Part shown: piece after piece, positions 3,843-48,700 of the stretch
Position numbering within the stretch: the stretch's first letter is position 1
Layout: each line of letters starts with the position of its first letter
Assembly: GCA_930367215.1 (NCBI GenBank)
Contig: OV884056.1
Location: 228,213,127 to 228,277,126, forward strand
Reading direction: 5' to 3'
Origin: Pollenia angustigena
Lineage: Eukaryota; Arthropoda; Insecta; Diptera; Polleniidae
DNA: 64,000 bases
Translations under genes and position numbers: made by a program
The notes under the pieces: generated by a model
Database searches by the model: none
Seen by the model: only the letters and a program-made list of their open reading frames with translations
Told to the model about the DNA's origin: nothing

Positions 3843-4484
3843 ATTTTAACAATTATGTAAAAATATTTCAATTTAGAATTACTTTCTGCTCCTCCATCAA
3901 TACACCAGTATTATAACACTATATGTAATTCATTTAACAACAATAAAAACTATTGTTGTTGTTAATTCAGTTGCAAATGTTGTGAACATGTGTACAATGT
4001 GTACAATTGAATTGTTGGTATAACGTTAAAAAAAAAAAATTCAAGGACATCCACAGCTAACTATTAATTAAAAATAAAATAATAGCTATAAAAAAGTATA
4101 AAACGAAAAAAGGAAAATAATAGCTAACACTGTGCTTTTTAAACAAGAAATTTGCAGGGGCTTTATACAACAATATTTTTTGGCTAATTTTTATCGCCAG
4201 GTTATTATTATACGAAAGTAAGAGCCTCTTTCCAAATTTCGCAGTCGACCTAAACCTTCGTAAAGAAGGCCGAAAACTATAAGAGTCCGATCTTGAGTAC
4301 TGCGGTCTCCATCGATATGTGCTCTAAAAGAAGTTTTTTGCGCATTAAATATGCAGTGAAATCACTTACATATGCTATACAAATTGTGAAACATATACCT
4401 TAAAAACGAAAATGACTTATTTGAAAACAAATCGTTCAAGAATTTAAAAATATTTGTATATAATAATCAAGTTAAAATGTAAAG
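3843..4484. other. No gene seen
   Basis: AT-rich sequence with short direct and inverted repeats (aaacaataaaaact/attgttgttgtt). No coding frame or terminal repeat pair was recognised. Confidence 0.3.
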
Positions 4485-4680
4485 TCAGTCAAGCCTGACC
4501 TGATATGATACCTTACACTGCCGTGGAGCCATTTCCCATCAGAACACAATTATGTTATGAGGCTAAGATTCATATTAGAGCAATTTTTCTCGAATATTAT
4601 TTAAGTATCTTCATCTATATGATATCTGTTTGCTTCTTACTGATTTAAGGAAGGGACCTAAAGTTAATTTTTGACCTACC
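4485..4680 (+). repeat. GTATAGTCGG-family repeat, 5' fragment
   Basis: Reads 'agtcaagcctgacc..gatacc' followed by 'aattatgttatgaggctaagattcatatta', matching 30956-31220 and the segment at 40-75. It abuts the target site of the RAG1-like element at 4731. Confidence 0.6.
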
Positions 4681-4735
4681 AACACAACATTTTGTCAAGA
4701 CATATTACCTATCTTAAAAAATATGGTCGACGTTG

Positions 4736-4773
4736 CACAGTGGCGCCATTTGAGTTTTTTCGTTGCAAAAATC
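4736..4773 (+). repeat. RSS-like left terminus of the RAG1-like element
   Basis: CACAGTG, identical to the V(D)J recombination heptamer, then 22 bp, then GCAAAAATC, matching 7 of 9 positions of the nonamer consensus ACAAAAACC. The spacing was counted directly. The resemblance follows the known Transib TIR/RSS relationship. Confidence 0.8.
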
Positions 4774-4984
4774 ATATCTTTTGAACCGAATAAGATAATT
4801 GAACAGCTTGAAAAGCATATGATAGATAACTGTTCAGCCTATGAAATGAGCGTTTGGAAAGGGTGCTACGCTTTGTAGGGGCCTACTTATGGGTTATCAA
4901 AGTTAAAATTAGTAGAAAAATCAATTTTATGGTAACTAAAAAAAATTATTTTTACATTTTTAAGCCGAATAATATTAATATAAC

Positions 4985-5290
4985 ACATTTTTAAGCTAAG
5001 TCTACACGATATGTTGAATCAGCAAATTTATGTTGAATAATTACGTTTCAGTGCCAACATATCGCATAGACACCAAATTTTTTCAACAAACGTATTCTTA
5101 CTTACATATAACAGCCATTTGTTAACGATGTCAGCAAACTTTTATTCACAATTATAGCATATCGTCTAGACACAATATTTTTTGCTTTTCAACAAATTTT
5201 TTACGTATGTTGACAAATATGTTATTTGTTGAAAGTCGTATGCAAGCTTTTCAGCATACAGCAAATTTGGTAGCATATGAATAATATAAA
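4985..5290. repeat. Repeat with GTCTACACGATATGTT / ATATCGTCTAGACAC motifs
   Basis: Contains 'gtctacacgatatgttgaat', 'catatcgcatagacacc' and 'catatcgtctagacac', repeated in both orientations. The same motifs recur at 9160-9600 ('aacatatcgtgtagacac', 'catatcgtctagacacc', 'gccgattcaacatat'). ATATGTTGAATCAGCAAAT here is inverted at 9575-9600, so the two blocks may be the ends of one nested element of about 4.6 kb. Confidence 0.45.
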
Positions 5291-5426
5291 AATTTAAAAA
5301 CTTGATTAATTTTTTACACAACCCCGGAACTTATCCAGATTTCTAACTCATCGGCAAACAAGAAACAAAAAATTGCATTTATAAGTGCTTTGAAAATAGA
5401 AATGTTTGCCAAAGAACTTTGTTTTA

Positions 5427-5552
5427 GGGCCATTATTACAACTTGAAGTTAGCTAAAGTTAAGATTAAATTGACAGATAATAATGTGTTATCTGTCAAAA
5501 AGCGTCTGTTAACTGTCGGATAACAGCTAACGCCAAGTTATAATAATGGCCC
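5427..5552. mobile_element. 126-bp MITE, PIF/Harbinger-like
   Basis: Inverted termini GGGCCATTATTACAACTTG and the reverse complement of ..AAGTTATAATAATGGCCC, each flanked by TTA (5424-5426, 5553-5555). TTA duplication and GGGCC ends fit PIF/Harbinger. A second copy of identical length is at 36480. Confidence 0.75.
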
Positions 5553-5929
5553 TTAGAGTTATAGCCCAGAAAAGATGATCAATTCTTAACCAATATTTCT
5601 TGAAGTATAAATTGGATCACAGCAATATGGGTATCGCTGAAGGGTGTTTCCAAATACCTTTCATATGGTATATAAAACATACCGAATTATTAACCCATTA
5701 AGGACCAATTAAAAAAAATATTTTAATTTACTAATGCATTTTATCAAAATGGCTCTTATCTCAAAATGTTATCGATATAAAGGTATTTTTTACATAAAAT
5801 ATTTTATAGGGAACGCTGCAAGCTTTCAGTTATTAATGTTAAAATATTATTTTATAATAAATCTTTTGTTTAATATAGAGTTATGAGTATACATGTGGTA
5901 ATAGTTTATATACTCTATGTATTATTTAA

Positions 5930-6460
5930 TTATAGTATGCCAAATACCGGCTTTGCTAAATAAAATTGTTCTTTTATGTGGTTTTCGGCTGGACATAAGG
6001 GTTCTTAATTTTATGGTATATCAAGCACCGGCTTCGCTCAGCTGAGTTAATTTTCTTCATTTAAACTAGAACCCCTCCACAATGAAAAATTTGAATTTCT
6101 ATTTAAGAAATTAACAAAAATTGGTAACAAACTGAACCGATTGTTATTTACAAAAGAACTCGTTTTCTATGACTAGATTTTACACTACGATGATCGGTCT
6201 ATAATTTACCATAGGTCCCATGTAAAACCCATTCAGCATGCCTAAGACGTACCGAACAACGCTATTATAGCATAATTTGGAATATCATAGTTTCATAAAA
6301 CAAGAAATCACACAACTAAATTTGGAGAAGATCGGCCCACAATTTGCCATATGCTCCATTCGAGCATTTCAATTTTCAGTTGTTTTTTTTTATGACTTTA
6401 GTGGCAAAACTTGCATCATCTTTATTAAAATTATAAAAATTTGATAACTGTATTGAAATT
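5930..6460. repeat. Degenerate interspersed repeat (ATTTACCATAGG type)
   Basis: Contains 'gatcggtctataatttacca' with 'taggtcccatgtaaa', and 'gatcggcccacaatttgcca'. Similar blocks occur at 27430-27800 and near 58130-58160. These are internal parts of a common fly repeat; the ends are not defined here. Confidence 0.5.
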
Positions 6461-6514
6461 TAGTCTAGTTAATGTTTTTAATACTAAAATTACTCAACCG
6501 AATTTTGTAATTAT

Positions 6515-8192
6515 TAGGGATGAGATTTTCATGCACTAAAAAATCGAAAATATGCGCATAAAACATGCACTAAAAATTCCAAAATATGCATTAAAAAAAT
6601 AAAAAATATGCACTAAAAACTTGACCATTTTCAATAAAAAATTCCTTTGTTGTTTTTATTGTATTGTTATTCAAAGGTATAATATTTTTTAGAACTTACC
6701 CCCTGTTCATCGATTTCGAACGAAGATTTCGTTCGCTTAACTTTAATGTAAAACAAAAACAATGTTTTATAATTTGTTTTTTTATATTATCAAAAAAAGC
6801 TTTTGTACGTGGAAAATGATCTCTCAACGTCAATCGAAGTTGAGGCATACTTCAAGGATGCCAATACATTTGAAGAATATTAATTTTCTAATTCAGATCC
6901 CACATTTGATTCTAGCCTCTTCAGACCATGGGTACACATATGTGCACCTAAAAATATTACAAGTTTTAAAGACTAGCGACATCGTGTGACCAATAGAAAC
7001 AGTTTAATTACTTGCTTTAAGCTACTGCGCTTCAAAACAATATCAAAAGATGGCAGGGCTTAGAAGTTTTAGCTATTATTTTTACATCTGAATTTAACTG
7101 TTTGAAAAAACCATACTGTTGGGATATTTTTCCTCAATAACTAATCGCTAAGACCTGAAGTACACACATGTGCACCTCTTTTTCTACCAGTTTAAATAAA
7201 AAAATTAAAAAAATAATAAAAACCGAAATTTAAATTACACCTCATAAGATAAAACAAATAGTTAATAAGCCCTTTACTTAATCGGTTCAGTCCTGATCTT
7301 AAGAAATTAAGAATTTACGTTGAAATTTTTCATATATTAAGACCTGAGGTACACATATGTGCCCCCTTAATTTCTAAGAATTCAAATAAAATTTTTTAAA
7401 AAAAAAAGTATACAGTTTTCTTATCTCCTCCCCAAAAGGTGTAAACAATATATAAGAAATGTAAAAATTCAATGGGTTAATGCTCGGGTCTTAAGAGGCT
7501 AGATCAAAAATATTTGAAATTTGTTTTATTTTTTGAAATCCTCTATTTTTATTTTTATTTGCAACAGTTTTTGGATTTTTTTTTAATTTGTCGGGCTATT
7601 TTCCATTCACATGTTAATGTTACTTTCTGCCATATCAATTAATTTGAGTTGACTATTAAGTGAATTAAATCCTGTATGAAACCAATAAATCAATATTATC
7701 GAATTGGCTTCTGATTTCCTCTGCAACTCGGTGTAACCCATGTGCCAATCAAGTAGCATGTAACAGAGTTCGTTAATTGTTTTAGGGCAATTGGCAGCCT
7801 TAACCATGTAAGGTGCTGAATCGGTTAAAAATTTAAGGATCTTTTGTTGAAATCTTGTATTTTATGCAGAGCTCAAAAAAATTAATTAAGTGATTTAAAA
7901 AAAAAATTTTTTTGAAGGGTTTTTTATACAATTTGGAAATTTTTCGAAGAACTTTTTTTTATAATATGGAAATTTAAAAAAATATATCACTCAAAAATGT
8001 TAAAATATGCAAAAATATGCATTTAAACCCAAAATATGCAAAAATATGCATTTTCACCAAAATATGCAACAATATGCAAAAACAAATCAATGCCATTTTA
8101 ACGCAAATTTAATGATTCGGAAAGATAATTGGTCGACATCGGTTTTAGACTATCGACAAAAAACATGCATTTGCAAGGAAATCGCATCCCTA
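6515..8192 (-). mobile_element. hAT element, TAGGGATG ends, perfect 8-bp TSD
   Basis: Starts TAGGGATGAGATTTT and ends ..GCATCCCTA, flanked by GTAATTAT on both sides (6507-6514, 8193-8200). Subterminal repeats of 'aaaatatgcactaaaa' and 'atatgcaaaaatatgca' fill both ends. The minus strand carries a hAT transposase fragment at 7620-7840. The whole element is nested in the RAG1-like element. Confidence 0.85.
7620..7840 (-). pseudogene. hAT transposase fragment
   Basis: The minus strand reads FLTDSAPYMVKAANC and then, after a frameshift and with one stop, LAHGLHRVAEEIRSQFDNID. Both are hallmark segments of the RNase H-like core of hAT transposases (DAAPYMVKAGK and CLAHALHRV types). The element's ends at 6515 and 8192 agree with a hAT origin. 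It is far too short to function. Confidence 0.75.
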
Positions 8193-8285
8193 GTAATTAT
8201 CGACCCAAAAATCCCATTAATACGGCTAAACTGATACAAATCATGATATTTTATTCAAATTTCGTCAAATTAAGTTATATATGAT

Positions 8286-8831
8286 TAATACGTCGGTTAA
8301 GTCCGACCATATAAAAACCTATACCACAGAATATACAGATAAATATATGAGGGTGTACCTAATTTGGGACTCATGGGCAGTCATGGACCCGATAAAACAA
8401 ATAAGGTTATAGTCGCCAAATTTTGTATTAATACTAATATTAATAAGGATGTTATGGTATTGGTAATATTTTTGTGAGTGATAACTGTTTAGGAACTATA
8501 GATTTAGAATATAAAGTTTAATCTTAATACCAAGATAAAAAAATGGTTTATTGGCACAAAGATTCTAATCTGAAAAGTAGTTAGTATCTTTGAGAAATTA
8601 TGGACCGTTCCTTACCGTTTTCAATAACAATAAATATTTAGTACCAATGTACCAAATTTTATCAAATAATTGCGACCTGTACTTTGCACACTACAAAGTA
8701 AGCAGCCAGCCAGTCGGCCGGACAGACATCGTTATATCGACTCAAGATAGTGATTGATACTATAAAATGGTTATAAGACCAATATTTTTAAGTGTTACAG
8801 ACACTATGGTGGTGTGGGTATCAAAATGAAA
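8286..8831 (+). repeat. GTATAGTCGG-family repeat, complete short form
   Basis: Begins 'gtcggttaagtccgaccatat' and ends 'tggtggtgtgggtatc'. It includes 'attgcgacctgtactttgc', 'ggccggacagacatcgtta' and 'gtgattgatact'. It lacks the tandem 'aggaccacgagg' units of the longer copies at 27867 and 36669. Confidence 0.75.
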
Positions 8832-9159
8832 AACATACTGCTGGCCGGCCCATAACTTACCATAAAGGTAGAACTGTAACCAATTATTAAACTGTGAGGC
8901 CTTATAAATAATTTTTAGATCAATCCAGTTCATATATTTTAACTACATATTTGCAGATTAGACCCAGCCCAATATATCTTTCTTACTTATTCAGTATTAA
9001 TATGCATACATATGTACATAAAACTATTAATTTTTGCACTAAAGGCGATAATTTATAACAAATTTTAAATAAAAAAAAACTTAAATAATAAAAAAAGAGA
9101 ATTGTCAAATTTATTTGAAATTTTTAAACAAATGTTCTCTTTACTCAACATACATAACA

Positions 9160-9600
9160 ACATACGAAATTTAACATATCGTGTAGACACAAAAATTGTA
9201 TGCTAACTTATTTGTTGAAATATCATTTGCTAGCAAGGCGAATTCATCCCAGGTAATCTCGGTACTACAGCAAGTACAACTCGTACAAAAACCACAAGCA
9301 ATTTGTTTTTGTAAAATCATTGTACAATGTCAAAAACAGAAATAAAACAAAACGGAAACAATGATAATAAAAGAGAATAAACAAAATTTTGACATCCAAC
9401 AGTGATTTTAGCTATTATCAACAGGGCTTTTAAGACCACCTGTAATAAATTCGCCTTGTTTGCTAGCATATGATAAATTTGAAAAATTTAGTATTTTCAG
9501 CATATCGTCTAGACACCTAGCATATTGCATATTCTGATAGAGACATTTGTTATTATTTTTAAGCATATGTGTATAAGCATACATTTGCCGATTCAACATA
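9160..9600. repeat. Second block of the ATATCGTCTAGACAC repeat
   Basis: Partner of 4985-5290, see motifs there. It is split by the CAAGGCG MITE at 9234-9458. The T-rich run at 9601 follows 'gattcaacata'. Confidence 0.45.
9234..9458. mobile_element. 225-bp hAT MITE (CAAGGCG family)
   Basis: Termini CAAGGCGAATTCATCCCAGG and the reverse complement of ..CCTGTAATAAATTCGCCTTG, with perfect 8-bp duplications TTTGCTAG (9226-9233, 9459-9466). The ends are related to the nested pair at 1489/1573 but the interior differs. It sits inside the ATATCG repeat block and the RAG1-like element. Confidence 0.9.
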
Positions 9601-9685
9601 TTTTTTTTTTCTTTAGGGTTTTATGTTTTAAATTATTACCCAACAAATTAAAAAAAAAAATAATTTTTTTTTTACATTTATTTTT

Positions 9686-11702
9686 TCAATTTTCTGTAAA
9701 ATATTCATCACAATTCGGCAGAGAAGGTATATCTAAAAGACTAACCATTTCTAAAGTATAATTATTTTCTAACTCTATTCGTGACTTCACATGCCGCAGG
9801 GAAGAAATAAGTGGATCGGAAGATGCTGCCAACATGTTGAAGAGGTCCTCATTTTGCCTTACCCTTGATGCTTTGAATGTGTTCTGCAATCTATATTTTT
9901 TATAAAATTTGTTAAGAGACTCCTGTGCTTCTTCAGAAAGCTCTCCAATTGGCAAAGACTGGTACTCAATTATATCTTTGCCATGCGCCAAAATTTTATG
10001 GACGGTCGGGGTCAACTTCTTATGTGGATACATTTCTGCTAAAAGAGATGCAGTTTTCGACGCATATTTTCCATATTTTGTAGAATTGGCATTTTCTTTG
10101 CAGTTTAAAATATCCAAGATCGTTCCCAATCTTTTCACGATTTGATTGTCAATTCCAGTGATTCTAGTTACTGCCTCATCATTTTCAAAAAATCTCCTAG
10201 AAGTGTTTCCATCGTTTGAGTTACCGTATCCGTGCTTGGGACAGTCTACTTTTAGTCCAACTTGTTTAAAAAAAGCATCCTGTATTTGCTTCTTTCTCTT
10301 TCTTTTCCTTATTCTTTATTGATGTATTTTCATCGAAGTTTTCCTCCTCTTGTGGTAGGGTATACGCCAGTTTTAGCAAGAATTCCATACACCTTATCCT
10401 TGCGTGCAATGGTGACATTCCATATTCGTAATTCTCCTCATTTGTAGAATCGTTTAAATTACCAAAGTTCGCATGACATTGTTGAGGTTGTTCCTGTCAG
10501 TTCGTTTACGACTTTTCCGTCAACCATGGTCAGGTGGAACTCGTAATTGCATTCAATATATTTTCCTTCTCCAATTTGCAGCTTTGCATGCTTAATCTTG
10601 CTTATTTGTTCTTCAATGTCCTTCACCGTGGTCCTTATGAGTTCTGCGGATTCCCTTGCAAACTGAAACATTATTGGTCGGCAATAATGCACTGATGACG
10701 GGCGTGGATTTTTCCAGTGTAGGGAAACATCAGATTTTAGCCGCAAAGGAACAACAGATGCCATAAACATATTTCCGTCCGATATTGTAGCGTCATCGGA
10801 AGATATTCTTTGCTTATAAACGCTTTGTCCGGATGATCCATCGCAGCCCCATTTGCTGATCAATGTCAACTTCTCAGGAAGAATTTTCACCTCATTTTCA
10901 GGAAGACTCTCCAACAACCGTTTTGCTGTATGGCCCATGAGATCCTGCAGATTGGCTTTCGCAGAGACTTCCGTAAACTCCGTATGCAGTGGTCGTGAAT
11001 TTATTTTGGCGTGCGTAATATCCTTGTATCCGGGTAAAACGTCAGCGCCGTGTCGCGTTAAAGATGCCCGTAGTTTCTCATATTTCTCTTTGGAAACTTC
11101 TAAGTCCATAAACAAAGCCAAGGCTTCTTTTTAATGTGTGCATTTGTGGGCGTGGGAATGCTTTCCTTAATCCTTTTTAGTCGCAGTGGGCTTGCATCAG
11201 CAACAGATTTGGTTATCTGCGACCTAACTCTTTCACTTTCCTTTGTATATTTAATAGACAGCGCGTCCGATAATTGCTTCGTGGTCAAGTCATTGGTGGC
11301 ACCGGCAAGTTTCCTCTTTCTTGTGAAAATTGAACACTCCTCAATACTTTTTTTTGGCCTTCCTTTTGCTCCTCTGGTTGTTGTGGTGGGTTTATCTACT
11401 GCCAATATATCCAGGATGGTGTCTTCATTAAGCCAGTCCTCGTATTTGGAGTTGAAGTTCTGAATGGTTCGATTAGATTTCACCCATTTTGCCTTAATAT
11501 TTGCATATATCAGATAAAAATTATTTTTTATAATTTCGCTTCTCTCAATATTTCCGTATAAGCTATCAAGTTCTTCTAAAGCAGCTTCCGTGAAAAACTT
11601 TGGCGTGGTTGACTTTCTAAACAGTTCAAATAATTTTAAATTGTTCAACGCCATGTTTTCAGTACTTAAATTGTTTAATGGTTTCAGTAATTGTTGCGCC
11701 AA
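9686..11702 (-). pseudogene. RAG1-core-like (Transib superfamily) transposase, frameshifted
   Basis: A DDE transposase remnant reading right to left over about 650 codons. Three open segments overlap or abut through at least three frameshifts: near 11120 (joining ..NAHIKK to EALALFMDLEVSKEKYEKLR), near 10470 (..GTTST to CHANFGNLNDSTNEENYEYG) and near 10310. Catalytic candidates: D in KWGCDGSSGQ (codon 10840-10842), D in GYGNSNDGNTSRRFF (10211-10213) and E in GELSEEAQESLNKFYKKYR (about 9920-9922). These align in order with the RAG1 core: the FDG motif, the second aspartate before a GN dipeptide, and the glutamate in the NES/ESGNK helix. NPRPSSVHYCRPI corresponds to the KPNSELCCKPL stretch, and VHKILAHGKDIIE to FHKTLAHVPEIIE. 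The N-terminal part contains KGRPKKS and a basic stretch. It lies inside its own terminal repeats at 4736 and 12543. A host-domesticated gene is unlikely given the frameshifts. Confidence 0.88.
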
Positions 11703-12504
11703 CTTTCAGTCGTAGACTAATCCAGGCATTATGCTTATTTTGCAATATATAGGCTTATGCTACCATGCCTAAAAATTTACCTGTTCCCTGCATACATATG
11801 GATTTAGGCACGTGTCCAAATAAGATTTGTGCCTACCTGTAGGGACCATAAGTCAATATTGTTCTTGACCATTTGTACGCCAAAGTATTGTTTAAGTGAG
11901 GTACGTACCTGCTAATTTCAATGAGTAGTTTTTTTCAAACTATTAGATCAAACTACTGTCAGTCAAACATATAAGGGATGGACGCCATACAATTTCTGCA
12001 ACCATGTGTTTTTAACCTTTTTTACCTCTAGAAGCCAAACGGGCACGTACGGGCAGATAAAACCTTTTGAATTATGTAAAGAAATAATCAAAGAACAGGT
12101 TTTGCAAATATGGCAAACATAGAAAAATATAGATTTTTTTTATTTTCCGTCAAAGTTGAAAAATAGTGAAAAGACGGATAGTTTTTAAATAGTGATTTAC
12201 CAGGAGAAACACAATGCAAACAGTTAATTTTTTTTTATCATTATACATTGAATAAATACATCAATCAATACAAACTAAAAATAAGGCGATTCGTTACCTA
12301 TTTTTCGTGATATTACACCTGAAATCGCAACAAATTGACTAAAAATTGTGTGTTTTTTTGAAAACCGAAAGTCGGTCAACTTTGAACGGTTATATCTTCT
12401 AAACTAAAAATGTGATATTATTAAGAGCGGCATATTTGAAATCGTTGAAAAGTTTCCTATAACATGGGTTTATTCAAAACTTCGTCGGCGCTCATGAAAA
12501 TTTT

Positions 12505-12543
12505 GATTTTTGCAACCTCGTTTGCTCTACGGGCGCCACTGTG
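12505..12543 (-). repeat. RSS-like right terminus of the RAG1-like element
   Basis: On the minus strand: CACAGTG, 23 bp, then GCAAAAATC. The first 12 bases and the GTTGCAAAAATCA block are identical to the left end, while the spacer differs and is one base longer. Confidence 0.8.
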
Positions 12544-12760
12544 CGTTGCAGCAAATGAGCGACATTTTTTGGCCTTTCCTCATGGATATTGTTCATGGTT
12601 TTTGTAACACTAATTTTAAAGAATAATTGCATTGTTACCAATACCTAAGTTTAATCGGCAGAAAAGAGAAAATATTTGATTTCAATATCTTAAAATAAAT
12701 CAAAGATAAAAACAGCTTAAACTTTTATGTTTTGCTCTTTAAAAATTGTAATAAGCTATA

Positions 12761-42700: not shown

Positions 42701-45700
42701 TAAATGTTGGAAAGAGTATGCCAAAATTGGACTAAGCGGATGGACCATTTGAGGCGCAGTCACGGTCAACATTTGCATGAAATAATCTTTAAACATTAAA
42801 TTATATGGACCGTACTATCGATTCAAATAAAGATTTCATGCATTTTTCTGAATTTTATGTGTTTTTTTTTAAACTTTCCTAAAGCTTTTAAAAAATAACC
42901 CGATATAAATATTCTACTGGTACAGGTTACAAAGGGCCCATACACCTAAACTCCTATTATAATAAAGTGGCCTTCGTTAAGATACGGTTGAGCGGTATTA
43001 GCAGAAAAATCTAATATGAATTTGTCAGATTAAATTACCTACACTTGATGTGAAACTAAGCACGCACAAATCGTTAAAAATACAAAGATTTTAGAAGAGA
43101 TTTAATGTGAACGTTAAGCTGCATGGATGATATTTGAGCTTAAGAAATGCTCCTTGAGGTATGTTTACAAGGTAATACAAAGTATAACGACCTCATTCTT
43201 CATCATTTTTTGACATGTCGTATTACCATGTAAACATGCCTTAATTATTTAATATTATTTAATCATATACCAATATTCCAGTTGAATACTCAAAAAAGAT
43301 TTGTGGTAAAATATGATCTCTGAGACTTTGACTTTTTTACCACTTTCTTTAAGCAAAAATAAACCAATTTCCCACTATTTTAAACAGAGAATAACAACTT
43401 TTAACAAATTTGTTTTCTTCATATATTAAATATGAACTAACAAAAATTAATCAAATCTTATCCTAATACTTTATTTGTGTCGTGCCAGCGCCAGACAAAA
43501 TGTTCTTCATCACGGGTTCTGTTGGTGCTTATCGCTCTTCTGATTGGGTGAGTGCTGCAGTGTGTCTTACCCTTAAGCGAGTATGGCCGCCATGATTTAA
43601 AATATTTCAAGCTGGATTTTGGTGTAGTTCGAGCTTTTTAAATAGTTTACTTCATATTTTTTAATCATAGTTTTTACTAATGACACTTTGAGGCAGTAAT
43701 GTTGATTTGATGCTGAAAAAATTGTCTACAATAATCCCTACAATTCCGGCATTTGGGTGATAATTTTTTGTAAAAATAAACTTAATGAGTCTTTTCAGAT
43801 CACTTTTGATGTTTAGAAACAGATTTATCAATTTTTTAGTTTCATTTTGCCTATATATGGCTTTGTCACGTTAAGCGGCAATCTTGATGTATGTCGAGAT
43901 ATTTTAGATGCGAATTTTCAGGTATTATTTGATTATTGATTTTAATAGGGGGCATGATTCCCTACGCAAGGTGAATGTTACAAGTACGCATTTTTGCTCA
44001 TTGACCTTTATCCTCCATTTTTTTAACCACAGTTCTAGTTGAAATATATGATCCTGTAAGTATCGAAATGCTTTTTGACTGTATTCGTGCAAGCTTAAAA
44101 AAGCTGTATCGTCAGCAAATGTTGAAGTTTGGGTATATTTGCTTGTTGGCATATGCGAGATACTTCCCTGAGATACTCCAGGTCAAATGGCTGAGAAGAA
44201 CTTACAAAATCGCCTTCTTTAATTTTAAATTTACGACCGACTGAGTAGCTTTCTAACATCTTGTGTGTGTAATCCTTGATGCCAGACATTATCAAAAGCC
44301 TGCGAAAGATCGATGAATAGTGTTGAGCAATATTTTTGTCTTCGGAGGCTTTTCTTATGACATTTACTAATTCATGAGTTTTTAATTTTATTTTGTAACG
44401 AAGGCTTTTAAATTCGGGATTTGAAGTTTCCTTTTTTAGGGGTTTGATTCATTTTTGTTTCGGCGGTTATTTCATAGTTTTAGGGATTTTTTTCATTCTA
44501 AAATTTGGGATTTTAATTCATAACGAACACATTCCTTAATTTTAAGGACTTAATTCGTAGATCCACACTTGGACTTATCAATAAAACATGATTCAGCACG
44601 GTCGAAGACACCAGTTTCATCCAATTGTTTTAAAAAGAGTATTACGAATTCCACAAAAACGACGATTGAGTTGTGAAATAATCCAAATATGTATGTATAA
44701 GTATTTACACACATACAAACACGTGTATATATTTTCGACTATACACATGAGTTCATTTATATCTTCAAGATGAGCATATGAAGCATATAAGACACGTCCG
44801 TGTACTAATTAAGTTATTAAAATTCTTTTTTAAATGTGTGTTTTCGTAAAATATTAAATGAAATTTTCGGCTGTATGCCGTTTTCGTCATTTATTATCAT
44901 TGAGATTCACGTACGCATGTCGCACACACATTAATATACAGGATACTTATGCATATTGCCTACTTCTTTACCAATCTAGGTGTGCGTTATGAACAGGGTG
45001 GTGTTGGCACCGGCTTTAAACATGTGGAAACCAATGCCCAGGGCGAAAAACGTCTCTTCCAAGTTAAGGGTAAACGCAATGTACGTGTACGCCAAGTTAA
45101 CTTGTCTGTATCATCGATGAACAAGGGTGATTGTTTCATATTGGATGCTGGTAATGATATTTACGTTTATGTGGGGGCCCAAGCAAAACGTGTGGAAAAA
45201 TTAAAAGCCATCAGTGCAGCAAATCAAATCAGAGATCAAGATCATAATGGCAGAGCTAAAGTGCAAATAATTGGTAAGTTAAAAGCGGAAAAAGTAGAAC
45301 ATAGTAACAGATAGAATAAATGAAATTGGTGAATGTTTTTATTTATTTTTCTTTTTTCATTTGTTTGTGGCTTTTAAAAATTCGAACAGATGAGTTTAGC
45401 ACAGACATGGATAAGCAAAACTTTTTTAATGTCTTGGGCTCGGGTTCACCAAGTCAAGTTCCCGAAGAATCGGTTGCTGAAGAAGATGCTGCTTTTGAAA
45501 CAACTGATGCCAATTCTGTAACTTTGTACAAAGTTACCGATAGCTCGGGCAGTCTTAAAATTGAACAAATTTCCCAGAAACCTTTGCGCCAAGAAATGTT
45601 GGATTCACGTGATTGCTTTATTTTGGATACAGGTTCTGGTATTTATGTTTGGGTTGGTCGAGGTGCTACTCCCAAGGAAAAGACCGATTCTATGTCTAAG

Positions 45701-48700
45701 GCTCAAGAATTTTTGCGTACCAAGAAATATCCCGCCTGGACACAAATTCACCGTATTGTTGAGGGCGCGGAATCTGCTCCTTTTAAGCAGTACTTTGCCA
45801 CTTGGCGTGACGCTGGTATGTCCCATACTCGTTTAGTACGTTCGGCTATGGGTTACGATACTGATGATTCTGAGTTTGAGATCGATGATGTCGACTCCGT
45901 TTTAAAGAACCTTAAAGAACGTGGTGGTCGTGCTATTGGCTTTATGCCCGACAATGGGGAAAATTCCATTGAAGAAATAACCCAGTACTATTCTAAATCT
46001 GGCAGTAATGAGGTCACTCGCAATACTATCAATTTTGATGACAATATGCCATTATTGGGTTTTTCGGCTTATATTATTACCTATAAATTTGAGTCGAAAC
46101 ATGGCGATACGGGTTCTTTGATTTATGTCTGGGAAGGTATTAAAGCCAGCCCTGATGCTCGTGAACGTGCTTTTGAGGATGCTATGTCCTTGGCTATGGA
46201 ACAAAATGCTATTTTGATTCGCACTGTTCAAAATCATGAACCTAGACATTTCCTTAAGATGTTTAAGGGTAAATTGTTGACCATGGCAACTTCCACTCCT
46301 ACCGAACCCCAACTGTTCCATATTCGTGGTACTGATGACTTAAATGTTCATGCTTATGAAGTCAATGCTGATTCGTCATCTTTGTCATCGGGTGATGTTT
46401 TCGCTTTGGTAACAAATCGTGATAACAAAGTCTTTATTTGGATTGGTTTGGTGAGTCTAACAATGTTGCTTCCTAGTTTGACATTAAAAAAAAAATTTGG
46501 ATTTTTAATTTTTATTTAAACAGGGTGCTTCTGACTTTGAAAAAACCATGGGCTTGAATCGTTTCGGGCAGTACTGGCCCAATGCTGAAGTTGAAGTCAT
46601 CGAAGAAGGTGCTGAGCCCGATGATTTCTGGGAAGATTTGAATGGTGAAGGTATTTATGATCGCAGCATGTCGGAAAAAGGTGCTCCTCTCTTGGAACCA
46701 CGTCTCTTCCACTGTCGTTTGAATGGCAAACGCGTTAAGGTTGAAGAAGTCAATCATTTCGAACAAGCTGATTTGGATATGGATGATGTTATGCTCATGG
46801 ATGCTGGCGATGAGATTTATATGTGGGTTGGTTCAGGAGCTACAGCTGATGAAAATGGCAAGATCTTAGATATGGCCAAGGTATGTTATTAGAAATATCT
46901 AAAACACTTTGAAAGTTGTTATAGTTTATTTTGTTTTCAGAAATATATTAAGTCCGAACCTACAGGTCGTACCATTGACACAGTCAGTGTTATTCGTATT
47001 TCTCAAGATCATGAACCGCGCGTTTTCAAACGCATGTTCCCCAGTTGGGAAGATGGTTTTTGGCAGGTTAGTAAAAAGTTCTTGATAAATTCCATGTATT
47101 TGTTTTAGTTATTTTGAATTTTGCTTGTTTAAATCATTTTCTATGTATGTGTTGTATTTATTATTAATTTCATTAATTAATTTAGGCAATTTTGCATTAT
47201 AATAAAAAGTATGTGTTTATTTGTGACTAATTTTATAAATAAATATTTGTTCATTACTAAATTAATAAACTAGAGATAATAGAAATGTTTTTTAATAAGT
47301 GGTATTGATTAATTTATTAGTACTTGATTAAGTTTTAGTAGTAGTTAGTAATTTTTTTTTTTGCAAATTCTTGCACGCAATGAACTTATTTTTTTAATCG
47401 GAAATGTTTTATTTTTGATAAAATTGAAATACATTAAATGGGTTTACCAGAAAGAAGTACAGTTCCATGAGTTGGTGCACTTTTCGTTTCGTTATAAACT
47501 TGTTTTTGCTGAATCCTGGCAAAAAGATCGCTGGGTTCTTTGACTCAAAGGCACAATACTGGTACCCAATAAAAAAATTGAGCTTCCAACGAAGCAGGTT
47601 TGTAAGGGAGAAACATTAAAGTTTCGCTTACCAATGCGCTTACGGAAGACATGAATTTTATATGGCGAGTTCCCACTTTGAAGCAATACATTTTTGATAC
47701 ATAAAGCGCATTATTCAGCGCACATAAACATTGTTGGATGTAACGATCATAATTACACACTGAATGTTTTGATACAGTTATTTTTTAGTATTCTCCCTTA
47801 CAAACCTGCTTCGTAGTAAGGGAATGCTGTAGCACTTGAAATTTTATTTTTTTTTTAATAAGAGTTGTTGAGAGTTCTTTCACTTACTTTACTGCATTTC
47901 TGTATGTCTTATTGCGTAGCGCATAATTGTGCGCTTATTTTTTTAAATGTACCTTTAGTGCTTCGCAAAATGAATAAATTTTTTATTGGGTACCTAAGTA
48001 AAAATCATCAAAGGATCTTGAGGAAGATTTTTCCTAAATAGCTCATACTATTATAACAGAACTGTGCAGATCCTGCCTATCAATCATCAGTAGTCCTAAC
48101 AATAATCCAAATCCAGTAATCGATTTGCGACTTATTGATCTTTATGGTGTACAAAATTCGCCATCTAATTGAGGCCAATCAACAAAAGACACTAAGGCAT
48201 CATCGAACTTTTTTTACTGAATGCGCCCCAAAATTGGACTTCCAGAATGTTCTTCGTCAAGAACTGCTGAGCCGTCCATACGACCAAAATTATTTTCAAA
48301 TGTCATTCATATTTCGAATAAAAAGAATGTTTCAGAATAATATTTAATAAAATCCGAAATAAAAAAATCAATTTGTATAACTGATGCATAGAATCCAATG
48401 GCGGAGAATTTTGGCTTTGCATGGAATATATTTGAACCTGTACCCATGTTATGTAACTTTGGTGAGAACTTCTCGCATCGAAAATATGTGAAACAAAATA
48501 TCCCATCAATTACCGAAAATTGAGAAAACTATCAAATGAAATTATGTCGTTAAGTTATAAATGTCATAATATTCCACTCGAAGTCGATGTGAAATTGCAG
48601 ACATTGAGAACGCCAGTCACACAAAGCGTTGACGCAAACCAAATTTACTAAAACTGAAAAATTGACAATGGTGAAAATACAACCGTCAGTTATATCAAAT

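Follow-up and report, generated by a model that had tools for sequence, protein, structure and literature searches.

A recently amplified Transib family in the fly Pollenia angustigena and an older, dead copy with V(D)J-type ends

Transib transposases are akin to RAG, by which antibody genes are rearranged, and their biochemistry rests largely on HzTransib. The locus analyzed here is a stretch of 64 kilobases (kb) from the fly Pollenia angustigena (contig OV884056.1, positions 228,213,127–228,277,126; ‘the window’), in which a decayed Transib copy spans positions 4736–12543 (7808 base pairs, bp). In published work, HzTransib is described with its catalytic triad and hairpin mechanism, the GGRPR region of RAG1 is presented as a hook for reading the nonamer, and some Transib ends are stated to match the V(D)J consensus exactly (PMC6941560; for the ends, also reviews); Transib ends are further reported to carry a heptamer and nonamer-like words at 20–22 bp, some with 12/23 asymmetry (PMC8355894), and RAG to join into 5-bp GC-rich targets (PMC11844651). 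The literature surveyed, with partial coverage, yielded no paper on the Transib family to which the window copy belongs.

Copies and affiliation of the family

The window element is, with little room for doubt, a dead, older copy of a cut-and-paste transposon of the Transib superfamily, the sister copies of which were recently amplified and may still move. The exact word CACAGTGGCGCC is found at only two places in the window, 4736–4747 on the plus strand and, inverted, 12532–12543, with CGTTG immediately outside both; between these termini lies a frame-broken minus-strand transposase. The inverted termini and the perfect 5-bp duplication are thus as originally predicted.

Genome-wide, CACAGTGGCGCC occurs 759 + 779 times, compared with 5 + 2 for a reversed-pattern control, and the right-end variant CACAGTAGCGCC 615 + 581 times, compared with 1 + 0 for its control; the abundance of both is far above chance. 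Copies were read in 40 stretches (L009–L048) from the first 100 genome-wide CACAGTGGCGCC places listed (L009–L013 and L023 were selected for two close-set CACAGTGGCGCC matches), and these stretches and the window contained 42 left and 37 right ends, from which 35 copies could be paired. Perfect 5-bp duplications flank 32 of the 35 pairs, and 41 of the 42 left ends carry CACAGTGGCGCC with the heptamer CACAGTG. The duplication conforms to CGNCG in 23 of the 32 cases, with C at position 1 in 30 and G at position 5 in all 32; for comparison, CGNCG occupies 31 of the 63,996 window positions.

An open frame of 684 codons is present in 10 of the 35 paired copies (3241, 3348 or 3497 bp long), nine of the encoded proteins being identical and one having a single difference; the intact protein consists of 683 amino acids, with D276, D383 and E590 in the numbering from the ATG start. 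Among the eight 3348-bp copies, any two differ at 0–3 bases, and the short forms are likewise uniform (1418 bp, eight copies, 0–4 differences; 1076 bp, four copies, 0–1), whereas the 262 ungapped differences between the two 1419-bp copies probably reflect a register shift. When the best 65 of 11,712 genome candidates were scored, all 65, which lie on one contig, proved 100% identical over 683 residues; this scoring favors the best copies and so provides a lower bound for intact copies, not a fraction. Overall, the family is very young, its sister copies being products of very recent amplification.

Copy L018 (574–4070, 3497 bp) contains one extra repeat near the right end compared with the 3348-bp copies, and therefore, the element varies in repeat number in this region. 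Adjoining the Transib copy in L025, on the minus strand at 3889–5871, is an open frame of 660 amino acids that by eye resembles a retrotransposon polyprotein.

Among solved structures, the intact protein matches HzTransib with 306.5 bits, compared with 32.2 for RAG1 and 24.1 for ProtoRAG, and with a profile built from 60 Transibs the scores are 666 bits for HzTransib, 58 for the best RAG1 entry and 67 for ProtoRAG. On sequence grounds, a deep relationship to RAG1 is evident, but Transib is far nearer. A protein search (7997 candidates scored) identified 98 relatives with 31–95% identity, all named sources being insects, and in the alignment of 78 proteins the D, D and E are conserved in 78, 77 and 76 rows, respectively. 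In a tree built from 233 columns of 76 relatives of at least 540 amino acids, the fly protein, HzTransib and partial RAG1 and ProtoRAG stretches, RAG1 and ProtoRAG split from every Transib with support of 100, and the fly protein groups with P0035 and P0036 with support of 93; FastTree yields the same placement of the fly protein, with values of 0.66–0.71 at the deepest nodes after rooting. Because the RAG stretches are partial, the tree tests affiliation and not deep order. The comparison with Transib, ProtoRAG and RAG1 thus offers no support for the distinct RAG1-like lineage that the original prediction had envisaged. Viral contigs scanned with the Transib alignment gave 112 pattern matches, with no relative among them.

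The family combines a homologous DDE transposase, a 5-bp duplication, heptamer-like inverted ends starting with CAC and a single RAG1-like gene, all of them features of the Transib superfamily. As for those of the RAG1-like (RAGL) transposons, the transposase lies outside the RAG1/RAG1L clade, and no convergent RAG2-like gene was seen among the open reading frames (ORFs) of at least 150 amino acids in the intact copies L012, L015 and L025, no dedicated kelch search having been run; L015 and L025, both of 3348 bp, have one such ORF besides an antisense one. The family is a newly recognized member of the known Transib superfamily, linked to RAG1 through Transib.

The window copy

The features of the window copy are, in order along the window:

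4731–4735, no strand: left target-site duplication CGTTG, an exact match outside the terminus
4736–4747, plus strand: left terminal inverted repeat CACAGTGGCGCC with heptamer CACAGTG, the 12-mer shared by nearly all left ends read
4762–4774, plus strand: second shared end block GTTGCAAAAATCA, left, with the nonamer-like GCAAAAATC separated from the heptamer by 22 bp
4963–9600, no strand: nested later insertion, not Transib, limits approximate, recognized by the break in homology
9689–10315, minus strand: C-terminal transposase piece with the catalytic E codon at 9920–9922; 140.8 bits to HzTransib, 95% to the intact family protein
10269–10496, minus strand: transposase piece in a different frame; intact family protein matched at 81% across 72 residues
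10462–11130, minus strand: transposase piece with the catalytic D codons at 10840–10842 and 10519–10521; 118.7 bits to HzTransib, 96% to the intact family protein
11103–11705, minus strand: N-terminal transposase piece with ATG at 11652–11654 and the GRP motif at 11355–11363; intact family protein matched at 95% across 176 residues
12504–12516, minus strand: second shared end block GTTGCAAAAATCA, right, with the nonamer-like GCAAAAATC separated from the heptamer by 23 bp
12532–12543, minus strand: right terminal inverted repeat, CACAGTGGCGCC read inward, an exact match
12544–12548, no strand: right target-site duplication CGTTG, an exact match outside the terminus

The original prediction treated the span as one element with a RAG1-type protein on the minus strand. 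Left-end homology ends at about 4962 and picks up again at about 9600, so that some 4.6 kb of the span are a later insertion; a single 7.8-kb element is rejected, and the intact-frame copies measure 3241–3497 bp. The protein is recognizable, with the D, D and E codons kept, but it is not continuous, being broken into four pieces spread over different frames. The best RAG1 scores for two of the four pieces, compared with solved structures, are 23.5 bits (9689–10315) and 14.3 bits (10462–11130).

Near the limits of the nested insert are 24-bp inverted repeats (5009–5032 and 9578–9601, 92% complementary), and several copies of a CATATCGTCTAGACAC-like word lie inside it. A Pfam search with a short minus-strand ORF within the insert (7610–7861) produced no convincing match.

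End structure, coexisting families and a possible mechanism

The two ends of the family are not identical. The right ends start with CACAGTA in 29 of 37 cases, with CACAGTG in seven and with GACAGTG in one; the common start CACAGT is found in 41 of the 42 left ends and 36 of the 37 right ends. The outer 70 bp of the left and right ends have two blocks of at least 7 bp in common, the 12-bp tip and GTTGCAAAAATCA, the latter at offset 26 on the left and 27 on the right. When the inner ends were shuffled 20,000 times, a shared word of 13 bases never arose and one of 12 bases arose twice, and the two conserved end blocks are well supported. The word closest to a nonamer, GCAAAAATC, agrees with ACAAAAACC at seven of nine positions and is spaced from the heptamer by 22 bp on the left and 23 bp on the right; the placement of the tip and GTTGCAAAAATCA resembles that of heptamer and nonamer, the resemblance to the V(D)J nonamer itself being suggestive only. 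On the protein side, the N-termini of the aligned Transibs contain a GRP motif (G in 71, R in 73 and P in 67 of 78 rows), which together with the following basic stretch is collinear with the GGRPR region of RAG1 in a profile match. Given two end blocks and the alignment of GRP to the RAG1 hook region (PMC6941560), the transposase probably reads its ends at two points.

Several other Transib families coexist in this genome. A second search used the hoverfly Transib P0099 as the query, and of the best 71 of 11,668 candidates that were scored, 60 are near-equal in score with open frames of 683–689 amino acids (family F2); the frames of the other 11 are 651–708 amino acids long, two with one internal stop. 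In F2, the ends consist of a perfect 36-bp repeat starting with CACATAG, with the duplication AGTCG in the one copy with both ends, whereas those of family F6 start with CACACTG and have a common block at offset 16, with the duplications CGTCG and CGCCG in its two copies; for family F5, two stretches were examined and did not reveal the ends. Further places with long Transib frames include C1:22847327–22849156 and C6:1950600–1952393.

Because the heptamer differs among families within one genome, no special ancestry need be assumed for the perfect V(D)J heptamer in the window family. The match to the recombination signal sequence emphasized in the original prediction is real, CACAGTG being present at both ends of the window copy, but, with CACAGTA at most right ends and CACACTG and CACATAG in other families, it carries little lineage information and is rejected as a lineage marker. 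A rather improbable idea is that coexisting Transib families may be told apart by the position of the second block behind the CAC tip (offset 26/27 in the window family, 16 in F6, a continuous 36-bp repeat in F2), read by a GRP domain homologous to the nonamer-binding domain of RAG1. If this were so, second-block spacing would be a family-specific address and would foreshadow, in a transposon, the spacer rule of V(D)J recombination.

The sequences show homology, boundaries, 5-bp duplications, target preference, shared end blocks and copy identity; a mechanism can be sketched from published work on HzTransib and RAG. One DDE transposase (D276, D383, E590) would act on paired ends, its catalytic core probably reading CACAGTGGCGCC and its N-terminal GRP-hook region probably reading GTTGCAAAAATCA; it would nick at CAC, form hairpins on the flanking DNA, release blunt ends and join these, with a 5-bp stagger, to a palindromic CGNCG target.

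Alternative explanations and known systems

A distinct RAGL lineage of calyptrate flies, nearer to RAG1 than to Transib, would account for the perfect V(D)J heptamer that the family has on the left and the window copy on both sides, for the alignment of the GRP motif with the nonamer-binding region of RAG1, and for the match of the C-terminal window piece to Pfam RAG1 (E-value 2.5e-5; 23 bits, just below the cut-off of 25). RAG1 is, however, absent from the Pfam listing of the intact protein, HzTransib far outscores RAG1 (306 compared with 32 bits), the tree places the protein inside Transib, and no RAG2-like gene was seen among the ORFs of at least 150 amino acids in the intact L015 and L025, so that RAG1L is rejected on scores and tree and such a lineage is very improbable. 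Also very improbable is the explanation of the identical copies by a single recent segmental duplication or an artefact of the assembly in place of transposition: it would fit their extreme identity, but the flanking DNA differs among the paired copies, and a matching 5-bp duplication of its own accompanies each of 32 of the 35.

Several points weigh against the assignment to a young, possibly mobile Transib family with two-point ends. Three pairs lack a perfect duplication (L009, CGCCG/TGCCG; L012, CGGCG/CGTCG; L020, with a doubtful right end), F2 has no second separate end block, and the window copy itself is dead and older. The nonamer match of GCAAAAATC is weak against shuffles with any spacer (0.01 left, 0.11 right), the GRP–RAG1 alignment reaches only 9.8 bits with a domain E-value of 2, and the identity to RAG1 over the best-matching, and thus selected, stretches is 28.8%, above the ceiling of 22% given for Transib (PMC7204232). 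The chemistry, two-point binding and present-day activity of the family are, moreover, inferred.

The host side of the original prediction stands: gelsolin exons at 44904–46892 (plus strand) share 92% identity with Lucilia cuprina and 89% with Cochliomyia hominivorax, so the element, although not a distinct lineage but a RAG1-related Transib, resides in blowfly-like DNA of calyptrate type. Gene models of the bagworm moth Eumeta japonica match the transposase at 74–98% over 46–197 residues, and the record P0034 matches it at 95% over 443 residues, compared with 52–60% for the tephritid fly Eurosta, the gelsolin of which is 74% identical to that in the window. Horizontal transfer of the family to flies and Eumeta, as an addition to the Transib assignment, would explain this pattern and is a serious possibility, if somewhat the less probable one; because the moths were field-collected in Japan (PMC6488591), DNA of a parasitic fly could have contaminated the moth assembly.

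The value of the family lies in its youth and its two-block ends, the window copy itself being ordinary. Many identical intact copies, in which a heptamer of V(D)J type is joined by a further conserved block at 22/23 bp, amount to a natural enzyme and substrate, with which it can be tested whether two-point signal recognition predates RAG, and several open-frame Transib families in one genome make cross-mobilization testable.

With RAG1 and ProtoRAG, the fly family shares a related catalytic core, CAC-type ends and 5-bp duplications, but RAG1 and ProtoRAG form a separate clade of far lower similarity, and no RAG2-like gene was seen in the intact fly copies read among ORFs of the size given above. 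HzTransib (PDB 6pqn and related; Helicoverpa zea; PMC6941560) is much closer: the match spans residues 193–671 of the intact protein, with 38.6% identity over 461 columns and D, D and E aligned, although the solved chain starts near residue 185 of the fly protein and is thus without the N-terminal GRP region. Two Transib proteins from public sequence-read assemblies, P0035 and P0036, are 62% identical over 98% of the length and are sisters in the tree. The Drosophila Transibs hopper and transib2 (PMC3276498) have 5-bp duplications and a palindromic target in common with the fly family, the target motif being CCANTGG in Drosophila and CGNCG in Pollenia.

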